Part shown: positions 12,099 to 17,062 of the stretch, piece after piece
Numbering within the stretch: the stretch's first letter is position 1
How the letters are laid out: the number at the start of each line of letters is the position of its first letter
Assembly (NCBI GenBank): GCA_002862965.1
Contig: PKCW01000260.1
Location: forward strand, 1-18,104
From: Pseudomonadota bacterium
Lineage (GTDB): Bacteria > Pseudomonadota > Gammaproteobacteria > UBA5335
Direction: 5' to 3'
DNA length: 18,104 bases
Translations under genes and position numbers: made by a program
The notes under the pieces: generated by a model
Told to the model about the DNA's origin: nothing
Databases searched by the model: none
The model's input: the letters and a program-made list of their open reading frames with translations, nothing else

Positions 12099-12190
12099 GG
12101 GAAATGCGCCTCCTGATCTGGCATGCTGAATGGCCGAGAGCCGGCAAGGACGTCGCCGAGCGCGCGGAACTCCGGGCTCGCAAGCGCGCA

Positions 12191-12221
12191 ATTCTACAAC
12201 GTTGGGACCGAAGCCGGTCAA
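12191..12221 (-). promoter_or_regulatory. possible promoter for cytochrome c4-dsbA
   Basis: On the minus strand TTGACC (12221-12216) and TAGAAT (12196-12191), each 5 of 6 matches, are 19 bases apart, which is longer than the preferred 17. Transcription would start near 12184, leaving a leader of about 85 bases. The -35 element lies inside the interrupted palindrome at 12206-12232. Confidence 0.35.
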
Positions 12222-12232
12222 CCGGCGCGGTC
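12206..12232. repeat. 27-base interrupted palindrome between cytochrome c4 and engB
   Basis: Two nested inverted repeats share one axis: GACCG (12206-12210) pairs with CGGTC (12228-12232), and GCCGGT (12213-12218) pairs with ACCGGC (12221-12226). Eleven of the arm bases pair. No T-run follows on either strand, so it is not an intrinsic terminator. It sits 20 bases before the engB start and over the possible cytochrome c4 promoter, so it could be an operator for the divergent genes or a hairpin in the engB leader. Confidence 0.5.
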
Positions 12233-12251
12233 AAGAGGAACCATCGATCTC

Positions 12252-12860
12252 ATGCGGGACTACAACGCAGCGGTTTTTGTGAAGAGCGTGGCGCAGCTGA
12301 TGCAGTTGCCCGCCGACGATCTGGCCGAGGTGGCCTTCGCCGGGCGCTCCAATGCCGGCAAATCGAGTGCGCTCAATGCCATCACCCAGCGCCGCGCGCT
12401 GGCCCGCACCAGCCGCACGCCTGGACGGACGCAGTTGCTCAATTTCTTCGCCCTGCCCTGTGGCATGCGGCTGGTGGACCTGCCCGGCTATGGCTATGCC
12501 GAGGTTCCGCTGGCGGTGAGGCAGGAATGGGCGGCGCTCGTGGAAGGCTATCTGCGCGATCGGCAAAGCCTCAAGGGCGTGGTGCTGGTGATGGATGTGC
12601 GTCATCCGCTGACACCGTTCGATCGCCAGATGCTGGACTGGTGCGTCAGCTGCGGCCTGGCCTGTCATGTGCTGCTGACCAAGGCGGACAAACTCGGGCG
12701 TGGCGCTGCAGGCAATGCGCTGCTGGCCGTGCGTCGGACCCTGGTTCAGGACGCCCCCGGGGCGACCGTCCAGCTATTCTCCGCCGTCTCGCACCAGGGT
12801 ATCGAGGAGGCGCGCGAACGGCTGGAGTCCTGGTTTGACGACCGAAGCGTCCCGGCATAA
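12252..12860 (+). CDS. engB: ribosome biogenesis GTP-binding protein EngB (YihA/YsxC)
   Basis: EngB is an essential TRAFAC-class GTPase that acts in late assembly of the 50S ribosomal subunit. The 202-residue protein shows the G motifs in order: G1 GRSNAGKSS (31-39), the switch segment [10 protein letters not shown]3 DLPGYG (76-81), G4 TKAD (143-146) and G5 near SA (177-178). Length is typical (E. coli 210). The ATG at 12252 gives [16 protein letters not shown], aligning with family N-termini; AGAGGAA ends 11 bases upstream, a rather long spacing. The frame is open to 12123 but the upstream part is not conserved. It diverges from cytochrome c4 and converges on polA; its stop codon lies over the end of the predicted small RNA. 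Confidence 0.95.
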
Positions 12861-12899
12861 AAAAAACCGCGATGGCCGAAGGGGGAAGCCATCGCGGTT
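12859..12899 (-). terminator. intrinsic terminator of the predicted small RNA
   Basis: On the minus strand the stem AACCGCGATGGC (12899-12888) pairs perfectly with GCCATCGCGGTT (12876-12865) across an 11-base loop. The run of eight T extends from 12866 to 12859. There is no T-run on the plus side, so it should not terminate engB transcripts by the intrinsic mechanism. The T-run overlaps the engB stop codon. Confidence 0.85.
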
Positions 12900-12973
12900 A
12901 CAGCGGACTGCGGTCTTGGGGGAAACCGGCCAGCCCGCTTACTCAGGGTAGGAAGAGTATCGTTGCGATACTC
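12859..12973 (-). ncRNA. predicted small regulatory RNA between polA and engB (ErsA/Spot 42 position)
   Basis: About 115 nt, read leftward. Hairpin 1 starts at the predicted 5' end: GAGTATCG, loop CAA, CGATACTC (12973-12955). After a 15-nt linker, hairpin 2 (12939-12902) has 13 pairs interrupted by a two-base bulge, with one G-U pair, and the loop TTCCCCCAAG. Hairpin 3 (12899-12865) is a perfect 12-base stem with loop TTCCCCCTTCG, followed by eight T. A sigma-E-like promoter precedes it and a separate terminator ends polA before it, so it looks like an independent unit. Spot 42 in enterobacteria and ErsA in Pseudomonas are encoded downstream of polA on the polA strand, facing engB, as here. 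I infer homology of position, not of sequence. Both C-rich loops could pair with G-rich ribosome-binding sites. Alternatively it is only an elaborate 3' region. Confidence 0.65.
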
Positions 12974-12979
12974 GAAAAC

Positions 12980-13006
12980 ATAGACCGGGCCGTTTTCCGG
13001 AAGTTC
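12980..13006 (-). promoter_or_regulatory. sigma-E/AlgU-type promoter for the small RNA
   Basis: On the minus strand GAACTT (13006-13001) is separated by 16 bases from TCTAT (12984-12980). This fits the envelope-stress sigma consensus (GAACTT, 16-17, TCTGA; E. coli GGAACTT then GTCTRA). The preceding base is G and the base before TCTAT is also G, improving the match to the E. coli form. Start of transcription would be 6-8 bases downstream, at 12973 or 12972, exactly where hairpin 1 begins. No comparable sigma-70 pair is visible. Confidence 0.6.
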
Positions 13007-13017
13007 CGGCGGCGACG

Positions 13018-13042
13018 AAAAAAAACATCCGTCCACGAATGT
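13018..13042 (-). terminator. intrinsic terminator of the lptM-lysA-polA transcript
   Basis: Thirty bases after the polA stop, on the minus strand, ACATTCG (13042-13036) pairs with CGGATGT (13031-13025) through one G-U pair across the loop TGGA. Eight T follow at once (13025-13018). The stem is short and only moderately stable, so some read-through into the small-RNA region is possible. Confidence 0.6.
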
Positions 13043-13071
13043 GGCGATCAGGAGCGGTTTCGACCGGGTCG

Positions 13072-15804
13072 TCAGCTGCCGTGGGCGGCGTCCCAGTTCG
13101 CACCGACGCCCGCCTCCACCTCCAGCGGCACGGCCAGATCCGCCGCGCCCTGCATGCGCGTCAGCACCCCCTCCCGGACCGACGCGACGGCGTCGCTGGG
13201 GATCTCGAACACCAGTTCGTCGTGCACCTGCAGGATCATCCGTGCCGGCACGGCCGCGTCGAGGATCCAGCGATCGATGGCGATCATGGCGCGCTTGATG
13301 ATGTCCGCGGCGGTGCCCTGCATGGGGGCATTGATGGCGGTGCGCTCGGCGTACTGGCGCAGGCTCGCGTTGCGGGCCTGGATATCCGGCACGTAAAGGC
13401 GGCGGCCGAACACGGTTTCCACATAGCCCTGCTCGCGCGCCCGCGCGCGGGTCTGGTCCATGAAGACGCGCACGCCGGGATAGCGCTCGAAGTACAGATC
13501 GACGTAGCGCTGCGCCGCGTCCCGCGCGATGCCGAGCTGGCGCGCCAGGCCGAAGGCCGACATGCCGTAGATGAGACCGAAGTTGATGGCCTTGGCCGCG
13601 CGGCGCTGCTCGCCCTGCACCTGATCCAGGGGCACGCCGAACACCTCCGCCGCCGTGGCGCGGTGTACGTCCTCGCCCTGCGCGAAGGACTGGCACAGCC
13701 GCGCATCGCCGGACAGATGCGCCATGATGCGCAGCTCGATCTGCGAGTAGTCCGCCGAGAGCAGCACATGCCCCGGATCGGCGATGAAGGCCTGGCGGAT
13801 GCGTCGGCCCTGCGCGGTGCGCACGGGGATGTTCTGCAGGTTGGGGTCGGACGAGGACAGCCGGCCCGTGGCGGCGACCGCCTGCTGATAGGAGGTGTGG
13901 ATGCGCCCGGTGCGCGGGTCGATCTGCGCCGGCAGCTTGTCGGTGTAGGTCGATTTCAGTTTGGCCAGGCTGCGGTAGTCCAGGATCAGCCGCGGCAAGG
14001 CATAGTTGGCGGCGAGTTCCTGCAGCACGTCCTCGGCCGTGGACGGCTGGCCGGTGGGCGTCTTGCGCAGGACCGGCAGGCCCAGCTTGTCGAAGAGGAT
14101 TTCCTGCAACTGCTTGGGGGAATCGAGGTTGAAGGGCGCGCCAGCTTCGATCTGGGCCGCCTCACGCAGCCGCACCATCTCCGCCGAAAGCTCCGCGCTC
14201 TGGGCGGTGAGCAGCGCGGCATCGACACGGACACCCATGCGCTCCATCCGTCCCAGCACGGGCAGCAGGGGCAGCTCGAGCGTGGTGTAGACCGCGTCCA
14301 GCGCGGGCACTGCCTGCAGCCGCGGCCCCATCGCCCGGTGCAGGCGCAGGGCGATGTCGGCGTCTTCCGCCGCGTAGCGGGTCGCGGTTTCGATCGGCAC
14401 GGCAGCGAAGGGGATCTGCTTGGCGCCCTTGCCGGTCACCGATTCGTAGGTCAGGGTCGCGACGCCCAGTTCGCGCAGCGCCATCGCGTCCAGATCGTGC
14501 CGCGCCGTGCTGTCCAGCACATAGGACTCCAGCATCGTGTCGTGGCGGATGCCGCCCAGGCGGATGCCGTGGTTTTCCAGGACCGCGCGGTCGTATTTGA
14601 GGTTCTGGCCCAGTTTGGGCCGCGTTTCATCCTCCAGCAGGGGCTTGAGGCGGGCGAGCGTGGCCTCGCGATCGAGTTGGGGCGCGGCTTCGAGCCCTTC
14701 GTGGGCGAGCGGGATGTAGATCGCCTCGCCCGGATCGATGGCGAAGGAAAGGCCGACGATGCGGGCCGCGAGGCTGTTCAGGCTGGTGGTTTCGGTATCC
14801 AGCGCGATCAGATCGGCCGTTTCCAGCCGTGCCAGCCAGCGTTCGAGGTCGGCCGTTTCGCGGATGCAGTGATAAGTGGGTTCTGCGCCGGGGCCCGTGC
14901 CCGATGCTGGCCCTGCCGCAACCGCGGTGGCGTCGCCCTCGCGCTTCAGTTCGCGCAGCAGCCCGCCCAGCTCCAGTTCCTGCGCCAGTCCGAGCAGGGC
15001 CGCGGTATCGGCCGGCCCGGGATGCAGATCGTCGAGCAACAGGTCCAGCGCCACGTCCGTGCGGATGCGCGCCAGTTCGCGCGACAGCGCCAGCTGTTCG
15101 AGATTCTCGCGCAGGGATTCACCGACCTTGCCCGCGATCGCGTCAGCCGCCGCCACGAGCGCGTCCAGATTGCCGTAGGCGCCGAGCCATTTGGCCGCCG
15201 TCTTGGGGCCGACCTGGGGCACGCCCGGGATGTTGTCGCTGCTGTCACCGACCAGGGCCAGGTAGTCGACGATGCATTCGGGCGGCACGCCGAACTTGGC
15301 TATCACGGCGGCGCGGTCGAGCCAGCTGCCGGTCATGGTGTTGACCAGGGCGACATGCCCGTCGACGAGTTGCGCCATGTCCTTGTCGCCGGTGGAGATC
15401 ACGGTATCCAGCCCGAGCGCCGCCGCCTGCCGGGCGAGGGTGCCGATGACGTCGTCCGCCTCCACCCCGGCGACTTCCAGCAGCGGCACGCCCATGGCGC
15501 GGATCAGCGCCTTGAGCGGCTCGATCTGGCGGGCCAGATCGTCCGGCATGGCGGGCCGATGCGCCTTGTAGGCCTGGAACAGTTCGTCGCGGAAGGTCTT
15601 GCCGCGCGCATCGAACACCACCGCCAGCCGCCGCGGCTGCAGCTCCTGGACGAGCTTGCGCAGCATGTTGTAGACGCCCAGCACCGCGCCGGTGGGACGG
15701 CCGTCGCGTGTGCTGAGCGGCGGCAGGGCGTGGAAGGCGCGGTAGAGGTAGCCGGAGCCGTCCACCAGGACCAGCGGCACGGGCGGGGCAGGAGGCAGTG
15801 TCAT
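13072..15804 (-). CDS. polA: DNA polymerase I
   Basis: Polymerase I removes RNA primers and fills gaps in lagging-strand synthesis and excision repair. The 910-residue protein (E. coli 928) has three domains. The first is a 5'-nuclease domain (LVDGSGYLYRAFHALPPL, then GVEADDVIG and GDSSDNIPGVPQVGPKTA). The second is a 3'-5' exonuclease with intact LDTETTSLN (Asp336, Glu338) and YAAEDAD, so proofreading should be active. The third is a family A polymerase with motif A SADYSQIELR (Asp685), motif B RRAAKAINFGLIYG and motif C QVHDELVFE (Asp862). ATG 15804 is chosen because the nuclease domain begins a few residues later; it lies 7 bases after the lysA stop. It is the last gene of a leftward operon and converges on engB. 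The frame is open for 63 further codons upstream, but these overlap lysA and are unconserved. Confidence 0.97.
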   Translation of the reverse strand: MTLPPAPPVPLVLVDGSGYLYRAFHALPPLSTRDGRPTGAVLGVYNMLRKLVQELQPRRLAVVFDARGKTFRDELFQAYKAHRPAMPDDLARQIEPLKALIRAMGVPLLEVAGVEADDVIGTLARQAAALGLDTVISTGDKDMAQLVDGHVALVNTMTGSWLDRAAVIAKFGVPPECIVDYLALVGDSSDNIPGVPQVGPKTAAKWLGAYGNLDALVAAADAIAGKVGESLRENLEQLALSRELARIRTDVALDLLLDDLHPGPADTAALLGLAQELELGGLLRELKREGDATAVAAGPASGTGPGAEPTYHCIRETADLERWLARLETADLIALDTETTSLNSLAARIVGLSFAIDPGEAIYIPLAHEGLEAAPQLDREATLARLKPLLEDETRPKLGQNLKYDRAVLENHGIRLGGIRHDTMLESYVLDSTARHDLDAMALRELGVATLTYESVTGKGAKQIPFAAVPIETATRYAAEDADIALRLHRAMGPRLQAVPALDAVYTTLELPLLPVLGRMERMGVRVDAALLTAQSAELSAEMVRLREAAQIEAGAPFNLDSPKQLQEILFDKLGLPVLRKTPTGQPSTAEDVLQELAANYALPRLILDYRSLAKLKSTYTDKLPAQIDPRTGRIHTSYQQAVAATGRLSSSDPNLQNIPVRTAQGRRIRQAFIADPGHVLLSADYSQIELRIMAHLSGDARLCQSFAQGEDVHRATAAEVFGVPLDQVQGEQRRAAKAINFGLIYGMSAFGLARQLGIARDAAQRYVDLYFERYPGVRVFMDQTRARAREQGYVETVFGRRLYVPDIQARNASLRQYAERTAINAPMQGTAADIIKRAMIAIDRWILDAAVPARMILQVHDELVFEIPSDAVASVREGVLTRMQGAADLAVPLEVEAGVGANWDAAHGS

Positions 15805-15811
15805 GGCCGGC

Positions 15812-17062
15812 TCAATCCGGCAGCACGCTTTCGCCCGCCCACAGATCGATGACGGACTCGCGCGCGCGCGCCACATGCACGCGGTCGCCGTCCACCAAAA
15901 GTTCCGGTGGCCGGGGCCGCGCGTTGTACTGCGAGGCCATGACGAAGCCATAGGCGCCCGCCGAGCGCACCGCGAGCAGATCGCCCTCGGCAATGCGCAG
16001 CGGCCGGGCCTTGCCCAGGAAATCAGCCGTTTCGCACACCGGTCCGACCACGTCGTAGACCGCCTCGGGCCGCTCCGGTTGCTCGCGCACCGTCACGATT
16101 TCCTGCCAGGCCTGATACAGCGCCGGACGCAGCAGATCGTTCATGCCCGCATCGACGATGGCGAAGTGTCGCTCGCTCTGGTCTTTGAGGTACTCGACCC
16201 GGGTGAGGAGGATGCCCGCGTTGCCGACCAGCACGCGGCCCGGCTCCAGGATCAGCTCAAGCGCCCGGCCGTGCAATCGCTCGCGCAGCGCCGCGGCATA
16301 CGCGGCGGGATCCGGCGGCGTTTCGTCCCGGTAGCGGATGCCCAGCCCGCCGCCGACGTCCAGATGCTGCAGCGCGATCCCCCGCGCGGCCAGTCGGTCG
16401 ACCAGTTGCAGCACGCGATCCAGGGCGTCGACGAAGGGCGCGGTCCGGGTGAGCTGCGAGCCGATGTGGCAATCCACGCCCACCACGCGGATGCCGGGTG
16501 CGTCGGCCGCCAGTGCATAGGCTGCTTCCGCCTCGGCGATGGCGATGCCGAACTTGTTGTCCTTCAGGCCCGTGGCGATGTAGGGATGGGTCTGCGCGTC
16601 CACGTCGGGATTGACGCGCAGCGATACCGGCGCGGCGACGCCGTGGGCACGGGCGATGCGATCGAGCCGCTCGAGTTCGGCGATCGACTCGACATTGAAG
16701 CAGCGGATGCCGACCGAAAGCGCGTGTTCCAGTTCCGCCGCGCGCTTGCCGACCCCGGAAAACACGATTCGGGCCGGATCGCCGCCGGCCTGCAGCACGC
16801 GCGCCAACTCGCCGCCCGAGACGATGTCGAAGCCCGAGCCCAGGCGGGCGAGCACGTTCAGCACCGCCAGATTGGCATTGGCCTTCACCGCATAGCAGAT
16901 CAGATGCGGCTGATCGCCCAGCGCTTCGGTCATCACACGGAAATGGCGGGTCAGCGTGGCGCGCGAATAGACATAGGCCGGTGTGCCGTAGGCCGCGGCC
17001 AGCGCCTCCAGATCGACGTCCTCGGCATGCAGTCGCCCGTCGCGATAATTGAAATGATCCAT
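15812..17062 (-). CDS. lysA: diaminopimelate decarboxylase
   Basis: This PLP enzyme removes CO2 from meso-diaminopimelate to make L-lysine, the last step of the pathway, in the cytoplasm. The 416-residue protein (E. coli 420) belongs to fold type III. Its alanine-racemase-like barrel carries the PLP lysine in CYAVKAN (Lys60), HIGSQ (His199), LDVGGGLGI (235-242) and the phosphate/substrate motif EPGR (273-276). The C-terminal domain contains GPVCETADFLG with the active-site Cys343. All catalytic residues are intact. It starts 10 bases after the lptM stop and ends 7 bases before polA, so the three genes are tightly packed. The start lacks a clear Shine-Dalgarno, consistent with coupling to lptM. 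Confidence 0.97.
   Translation of the reverse strand: MDHFNYRDGRLHAEDVDLEALAAAYGTPAYVYSRATLTRHFRVMTEALGDQPHLICYAVKANANLAVLNVLARLGSGFDIVSGGELARVLQAGGDPARIVFSGVGKRAAELEHALSVGIRCFNVESIAELERLDRIARAHGVAAPVSLRVNPDVDAQTHPYIATGLKDNKFGIAIAEAEAAYALAADAPGIRVVGVDCHIGSQLTRTAPFVDALDRVLQLVDRLAARGIALQHLDVGGGLGIRYRDETPPDPAAYAAALRERLHGRALELILEPGRVLVGNAGILLTRVEYLKDQSERHFAIVDAGMNDLLRPALYQAWQEIVTVREQPERPEAVYDVVGPVCETADFLGKARPLRIAEGDLLAVRSAGAYGFVMASQYNARPRPPELLVDGDRVHVARARESVIDLWAGESVLPD

Follow-up and report, generated by a model that had tools for sequence, protein, structure and literature searches.

Does the gap between polA and engB in this gammaproteobacterial lineage hold a small RNA (sRNA) gene, and how would such a gene be related to the RNAs known from the same chromosomal place in other bacteria? 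The DNA analyzed here, called the window, is the whole 18,104-nt stretch of contig PKCW01000260.1 (assembly GCA_002862965.1, Gammaproteobacteria UBA5335), in which polA (minus strand, end 13072) and engB (plus strand, end 12860) converge on the gap. An earlier reading, made from the sequence only, had proposed that the gap encodes an envelope-stress sRNA of the ErsA type. The finding is real, and that interpretation is essentially right; expression of the RNA is predicted.

The common view of envelope-stress sRNAs is that they are young and tied to single lineages. In E. coli the polA slot is occupied by Spot 42, which is under the control of CRP. The accessible text of several papers describes other polA-linked RNAs. 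ErsA lies in the polA-engB intergenic region and has Hfq-dependent targets (PMC8575079). Its expression is strictly dependent on sigma-22 (PMC7565897), and it is presented as a functional orthologue of Spot 42 and a repressor of algC and oprD (PMC8395346). The CCCC loops of sX13 repress mRNAs with G-rich motifs, and Hfq is dispensable for this RNA (PMC3771888). The same source describes alpha-r7 as polA-linked, with three stem-loops and apical C-rich motifs; its authors had already pointed to sRNA genes at the polA loci of other bacteria (Spot 42, alpha-r7) and raised the question of further cases (PMC3771888). Anti-hemB corresponds to ncS04, a candidate sRNA strongly expressed in biofilms of B. 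cenocepacia (PMC5688073). Among the open-access journal papers searched, none names both ErsA and sX13.

The features of the locus are collected in the table. On the polA strand, a polA terminator, a promoter and a three-hairpin RNA of about 115 nt had been claimed in this order, and re-reading the sequence gives the same succession. The terminator-like hairpin at 13042-13025 sets polA apart from the sRNA, as far as its sequence tells, and the true start of polA probably lies further inside the listed ORF. The 115-nt RNA folds at -54.2 kcal/mol, compared with -30.85 +/- 3.33 in 200 shuffles (z -7.0), and none of the 200 shuffles folded equally well. The claimed 3' end, a perfect 12-base stem followed by eight T, was found at 12899-12859 of the minus strand, where the stem arms are AACCGCGATGGC and GCCATCGCGGTT. 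Three C-rich segments are present in the RNA: UUCCUACCCUGAG, the CCCCC of hairpin B and the CCCCC of the terminator loop. In the alignment made by the model described below, the mostly unpaired segment TTCCTACCCTGAGTAAG falls on the CCCTCCCTGAG loop that hairpin A has in the wider family. Inspection by eye shows UACUC and GAGUA on either side of UUCCUACCCU in the window RNA; pairing between the two could give a hairpin A of five pairs, in competition with the 8-pair 5' hairpin. A dual function as a peptide-coding RNA was considered and rejected: the only ATG sits in the terminator and opens a frame of just 11 codons up to the 3' end.

Table. Features of the polA-engB gap in the window and of the genes on either side
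Feature	Position	Strand	Basis and remarks
engB (ysxC/yihA) GTPase ORF	12123..12860	+	ORF list; matches E. coli yihA stretch; convergent neighbor
Terminator T-run, 8 T	12859..12866	-	Overlaps last two bases of engB stop codon
sRNA, about 115 nt, predicted 5' end G12973	12859..12973	-	Fold, covariation, model matches
Terminator hairpin (hairpin C), 12 perfect pairs, CCCCC in loop	12865..12899	-	Sequence, fold, covariation
Middle hairpin (hairpin B), CCCCC loop	12902..12939	-	Fold, covariation
Segment TTCCTACCCTGAGTAAG, mostly unpaired in predicted fold	12938..12954	-	Identical in 6 of 6 copies from 5 genomes
5' hairpin GAGTATCG-CAA-CGATACTC, 8 bp	12955..12973	-	Fold
-10 element TCTAT, spacer 16	12980..12984	-	Sequence; relatives TCTAT or TCTGT
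-35 element GAACTT (sigma-E type)	13001..13006	-	Sequence; shared by all six promoter copies in the window's family
Terminator-like hairpin and T-run behind polA	13018..13042 (hairpin 13042-13025)	-	Sequence
polA ORF	13072..15993	-	ORF list; matches E. coli polA stretch; upstream on sRNA strand

The conservation of the RNA was followed among close relatives. A DNA search found the region in five of 37 genomes: the window's own (G000), three of the same genus (G001-G003) and one of a second genus in the same family (G004). Six copies are present in these genomes, two in G001 and one in each of the others, and the segment TTCCTACCCTGAGTAAG does not vary among them. In an alignment of four sequences, 12 of the 36 predicted pairs are changed on both sides with pairing kept, and such changes occur in all three hairpins. 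In the 5' hairpin of G004, three pairs are changed on both sides, one is changed on one side and one is lost. The sequence-only reading had staked its case on stems that are conserved and co-vary in relatives, and the alignment contains both. In G003 another gene stands between polA and the sRNA, and the promoter and sRNA are kept beside engB. The intervening gene (L002/L008) looks by eye like an AI-2E/PerM-like transporter. The conserved pattern, with one mismatch allowed, is absent from G005-G008, and the polA-engB gap of G005, which is tiny, lacks the RNA. The covariance model R1, built from the four aligned sequences, has no match in the engB stretches of G005, G006 and G007; in G006 the contig extends some 280 nt beyond engB before it ends, and in G007 engB has a neighbor other than polA. 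Two contigs of G001, C58 (L004) and C296 (L006), each break off within the 5' part of the sRNA. Their upstream sequences differ, one resembling that of G003 and the other the polA side of G002, which suggests a second sRNA copy in this genome.

The promoter is conserved together with the RNA. In all six promoter copies of the window's family, 16 or 17 nt separate GAACTT from TCTAT or TCTGT, and the spacers comprise five distinct sequences in four groups (G003 equals one G001 copy, and G002 nearly equals the other). No sigma-70-type site was found in 12400-13500 of the window. The genome encodes an RpoE orthologue with 59% identity to E. coli RpoE. Its gene has an rseB-like gene downstream and GAACTC-N16-TCTAG upstream, and rseA was detected by BLAST in G004 only.

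R1 is blind to synteny, and it was used to search the class. At E<=0.01 it matched 28 of 369 class genomes, of which three were training genomes and 25 were not. polA and/or engB lie in the 1.5-kb flanks of 28 of the 30 R1 matches (25 of 27 without the training genomes), the two others being L045 and L055. R1 had no match in nine of 17 engB loci (L057, L061, L062, L067-L072), nor in L010, L011 and L013. Many of the new members have a common order, in which a 5' hairpin is followed by hairpin A (loop UCCCUCCCUGAG), hairpin B (loop CCCC) and a CCCCGG...CCGGGG terminator whose loop is C-rich.

Twenty-four of these new members, none from the window's family, served to build a second model, R2, and 22 of the 369 genomes supplied its training sequences. 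It finds a single place in the window, 12859-12962, at 49.4 bits (E 1.6e-11). At E<=0.01, R2 matched 211 of 369 class genomes, representing 158 of 271 genera. Because that threshold also admitted matches in 19 of the 68 genomes sampled outside the class (the best at 35.0 bits, E 1.5e-5), reliance is placed on E<1e-5 together with position. At E<1e-5, R2 matched 186 class genomes in 140 of the 271 genera, by our own table count with the 22 training genomes included, and none of the 68 genomes outside the class. Neither polA nor engB adjoins any of the 19 outside-class loci examined; among in-class R2 loci from the phylum search, four of the ten examined lack both genes. Position serves as an independent check on the better-scoring matches. 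The count rests on 137 best R2 matches and 74 engB rows, which give both coordinates for 67 genomes. In 56 of these the match lies within 3 kb of engB, and 54 of the 56 are convergent with that gene, at its 3' side. Of the remaining 11, ten have the match on a different contig from engB; the last, G341, has it 100 kb away from engB and beside polA.

Among 108 R2 matches, 24 of 25 pairs show double changes. The double-change cells number 560, compared with 165 +/- 14 after shuffling and 18-110 with slid structures, in a 108-row alignment that was fitted to the model structure and so favors it. CCC is present in loop A of 105 of the 108 sequences, loop B of 103 and loop C of 91 (median loop length 10), and in the two shorter spacers of 24 and 6 (median lengths 5 and 7). 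The window RNA is placed in this family by a model match, by its position beside engB and polA, and by a sigma-E-type promoter sequence about 50 nt upstream of the core. The reading as an ErsA-type sRNA in another lineage is supported; its scope was too narrow, since the family is present in about half of the sampled class genomes.

Does the promoter also extend to the wider family? The strict motif GAACTT-N15-17-TCNN[ACT] was sought upstream of the family loci. A first test took 42 of 43 places (L056 was dropped, being on the same contig as L003) and found the motif in 27, with 0.24 expected. The larger test covered 100 loci with one match each, comprising 96 R2 matches and four loci of the window's family; eight extra tandem copies, the 13 loci L169-L181 and the duplicate L102 were left out. 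At these better-scoring loci, which reach down to E 6.8e-9, the motif is present within the 160 nt upstream in 67 of 100, compared with 0.43 expected from Markov resampling. The downstream control zone contains it in two of the 100 loci, and the 496 kb outside the upstream zones contain it 14 times. The distance from the start of the motif to the R2 core is 35-65 nt at 66 of the 67 loci that have it. polA and/or engB were detected beside 85 of the 100 loci, and the motif is still present in 12 of the 15 others. Among the 79 loci outside both the R2 training set and the window's family, 52 have the motif and 64 adjoin polA or engB. The proposal that GAACTT-16-TCTAT is a sigma-E-type promoter is supported by the hexamers in all copies of the window's family, by the motif at two thirds of the 100 loci and by the similar sequence upstream of the rpoE orthologue of the genome. 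The strict motif is missing at 33 loci; by eye, many of these have one-base variants and a few look sigma-70-like. L116, L121, L122, L123, L150 and L157 are family members without the strict motif; the upstream regions of some appear sigma-70-like by eye, which suggests promoter replacement in some of them.

The relation of the window RNA to named families was approached through Rfam. At gathering thresholds, Rfam has no match across the whole window. Under lax settings, the sRNA strand gave near-matches to sX13 (27.9 bits, E 0.001), alpha-r7 (22.5), ErsA (19.5), anti-hemB (19.4) and tfoR (13.7), and the opposite strand gave one to IR_84 (19.8 bits), all far below the cut-offs. Membership in any single Rfam family is rejected, since every score is below its cut-off. 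Several of the near-matches are linked to the polA/engB neighborhood, and this lead was therefore followed. Covariance models of ErsA and Spot 42 had been put forward earlier as a check: ErsA falls well short of its cut-off of 50 bits, and Spot 42 has no match in the window.

ErsA (Pseudomon-1, RF01719) of Pseudomonas has the same location as the window RNA, in the polA-engB gap on the polA strand. Both have C-rich segments and a terminator with a C-rich loop, and a promoter sequence of the sigma-E/sigma-22 type is also present at the window RNA. They differ in primary sequence and in the 5' region, and the R2 cross-score is weak. The ErsA model passed its cut-off in one of 369 class genomes (L182), where the locus is preceded by GAACTT-N16-TCATA; R2 scores 35.4 bits there (E 1.5e-7 in the small search, 1.2e-5 per genome). 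With three more genomes of the same family, which are putatively also ErsA loci as read from two printed sequences, the R2 scores span 34.9-37.5 bits, and all four loci adjoin polA. These scores are hardly above the best outside-class score, so the link between R2 and ErsA is a weak one that leans on position. In the reverse test, the ErsA model had matches at 25 places in the class. Twenty overlap R2 matches at comparable coordinates, two (G227, G247) have no comparable coordinates and three (G061, G122, G308) do not overlap. The ErsA model has no match at E<=0.001 in the window's own genome, nor in 14 control genomes.

The connection with sX13 (RF02232) of Xanthomonadaceae is clearer. This family is the best Rfam near-match of the window, at a score below its cut-off of 50, and both RNAs are polA-adjacent with hairpins that carry C-run loops. 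The sX13 model passed its cut-off in three of 369 class genomes, and R2, trained on none of the genomes that pass the ErsA or sX13 threshold, finds the same three places beside polA at 45-47 bits (about 1e-10). In contrast to sX13, with its three C-rich-loop stem-loops, the window RNA has no C-rich loop in its 5' hairpin. Two of its three loops contain CCCCC, and the remaining C-rich segment is predicted to be mostly unpaired. The strict sigma-E motif is missing from the 100 nt examined upstream of the three sX13 loci. Anti-hemB (Burkholderia RNA 7, RF02837) has a threshold of 49.5, which the window does not reach, and its consensus CCCCGCUUCUCCUCCCUGAGCGGG equals hairpin A of the wider family. 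When 60 family loci were scanned with Rfam at gathering thresholds, three passed, all as anti-hemB; two of them lie beside engB or polA, and neither gene was found at the third (L156).

Two further candidates were rejected. Spot 42 (spf) of E. coli occupies the same slot between polA and yihA in the same orientation, and it encodes a small protein, whereas no such peptide is indicated in the window RNA. R2 has no match at E<=5 in the E. coli spf locus (L206), and the window has no Spot 42 match, so that kinship beyond the common slot is not supported. Alpha-r7 (RF02342) of Alphaproteobacteria has a cut-off of 60 bits, far above the window's near-match, and an extension of the family to Alphaproteobacteria is rejected since none of the 19 outside-class R2 loci examined has polA or engB beside it. 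By threshold, the window RNA falls outside the existing Rfam families. It groups with sX13 and anti-hemB, and probably with ErsA, in a larger family. What will be new to specialists is this single polA-locus family, usually with a sigma-E-type promoter, that bridges several Rfam entries.

Other explanations of these observations have to be weighed. The plainest is that there is no functional RNA and that a terminator and fortuitous inverted repeats happen to fill an intergenic gap. Terminators are usual at convergent gene ends, and the transcript is only predicted; given compensatory changes in all three hairpins, an invariant unpaired segment and a conserved upstream promoter sequence, this explanation deserves practically no credence. 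The RNA might instead be a constitutive sigma-70 housekeeping sRNA in which GAACTT and TCTAT are incidental. The loss of the strict motif in a few family members would fit such an RNA, as would the behavior of sX13, which in the accessible text is highly expressed and rises in high salt, at 37 degrees and in minimal medium (PMC3771888). It is very improbable in view of the missing sigma-70-type site around the gap, the hexamers kept in every copy of the window's family and the frequency of the motif across the wider loci.

A stronger competitor is convergence. The sRNAs of polA loci could have arisen independently and come to resemble each other through favored C-rich loops, GC-rich terminators and sigma-E promoters, so that the window RNA would be ErsA-like and not homologous to ErsA, sX13 or anti-hemB. 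Rfam does separate these families and the window lies far below each threshold, R2 scores the ErsA loci near its best outside-class match, and Spot 42 shows that the slot can be filled by an RNA that R2 does not recognize. However, loci of the family pass the anti-hemB threshold, two of them beside engB or polA, most places of the ErsA model overlap R2 matches, the sX13 loci score well with R2, and hairpin order, promoter distance and orientation are held in common. We regard convergence as unlikely, while giving it distinctly more weight than the two preceding explanations.

Common descent is the preferred reading. Sequence comparison shows that the RNA is conserved, with compensatory changes in its stems, that its sigma-E-type promoter sequence is conserved too, that the locus is syntenic and that the family is broad. 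We consider it likely that the window RNA is an RpoE-controlled, trans-acting sRNA whose C-rich segments pair with G-rich initiation regions, and that it is one branch of a widespread polA-locus family to which sX13, anti-hemB and ErsA probably also belong. Envelope stress would free RpoE, which would then transcribe the sRNA from its own sigma-E promoter, a step suggested by conservation of the promoter sequence. The transcript would end at the engB stop codon and present the 5' hairpin and the C-rich segments. These segments may pair with G-rich Shine-Dalgarno or nearby initiation sequences of mRNAs, and the pairing would mostly lower translation of the targets. We infer the pairing step by analogy with sX13 and ErsA and from the conservation of the loops. 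Exact 10-nt complements of the conserved segment occur at seven sites in four genomes, one per genome being the sRNA gene itself. Outside that gene there is none in G000 or G004, and therefore targets would need shorter or imperfect pairing or other loops. Of the extra sites, G002 has two and G003 has one; none is repeated in a second genome of the four, and the target model therefore rests on analogy.

A broader history also appears probable to us, with somewhat less assurance. ErsA, sX13 and anti-hemB would be lineage-specific descendants of one ancestral polA-engB sRNA in the Gammaproteobacteria (in the GTDB sense, including the former beta group). The ancestor would already have been controlled by RpoE, with C-rich loops resembling an anti-Shine-Dalgarno sequence, and would have acted as a general envelope-stress brake on translation. 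It would later have been lost, provided with another promoter or amplified in tandem in some lineages, with Spot 42 in the slot in E. coli. In about half of the class genomes sampled, one sRNA keeps its position, promoter type and core structure. Results obtained with ErsA and sX13 could carry over to many unannotated gaps, which can be tested as one family. The locus also raises a testable question, namely by what route Spot 42 came to occupy the polA slot of E. coli.

Some individual loci differ from the common arrangement. Tandem sRNA copies are present in G178 (L083/L038) and G285 (L043), with four copies each, and in G114 (L049), with two; several of the tandem copies carry their own sigma-E-like motif. 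L211 (G115) has the family-typical CCCCGCTTTTCCTCCCTGAGCGGG hairpin, with polA and engB not found nearby, and is possibly a relocated copy. At 993-1426 of L046, a match to the cspA thermoregulator (RF01766), just above its threshold, adjoins the sRNA locus.
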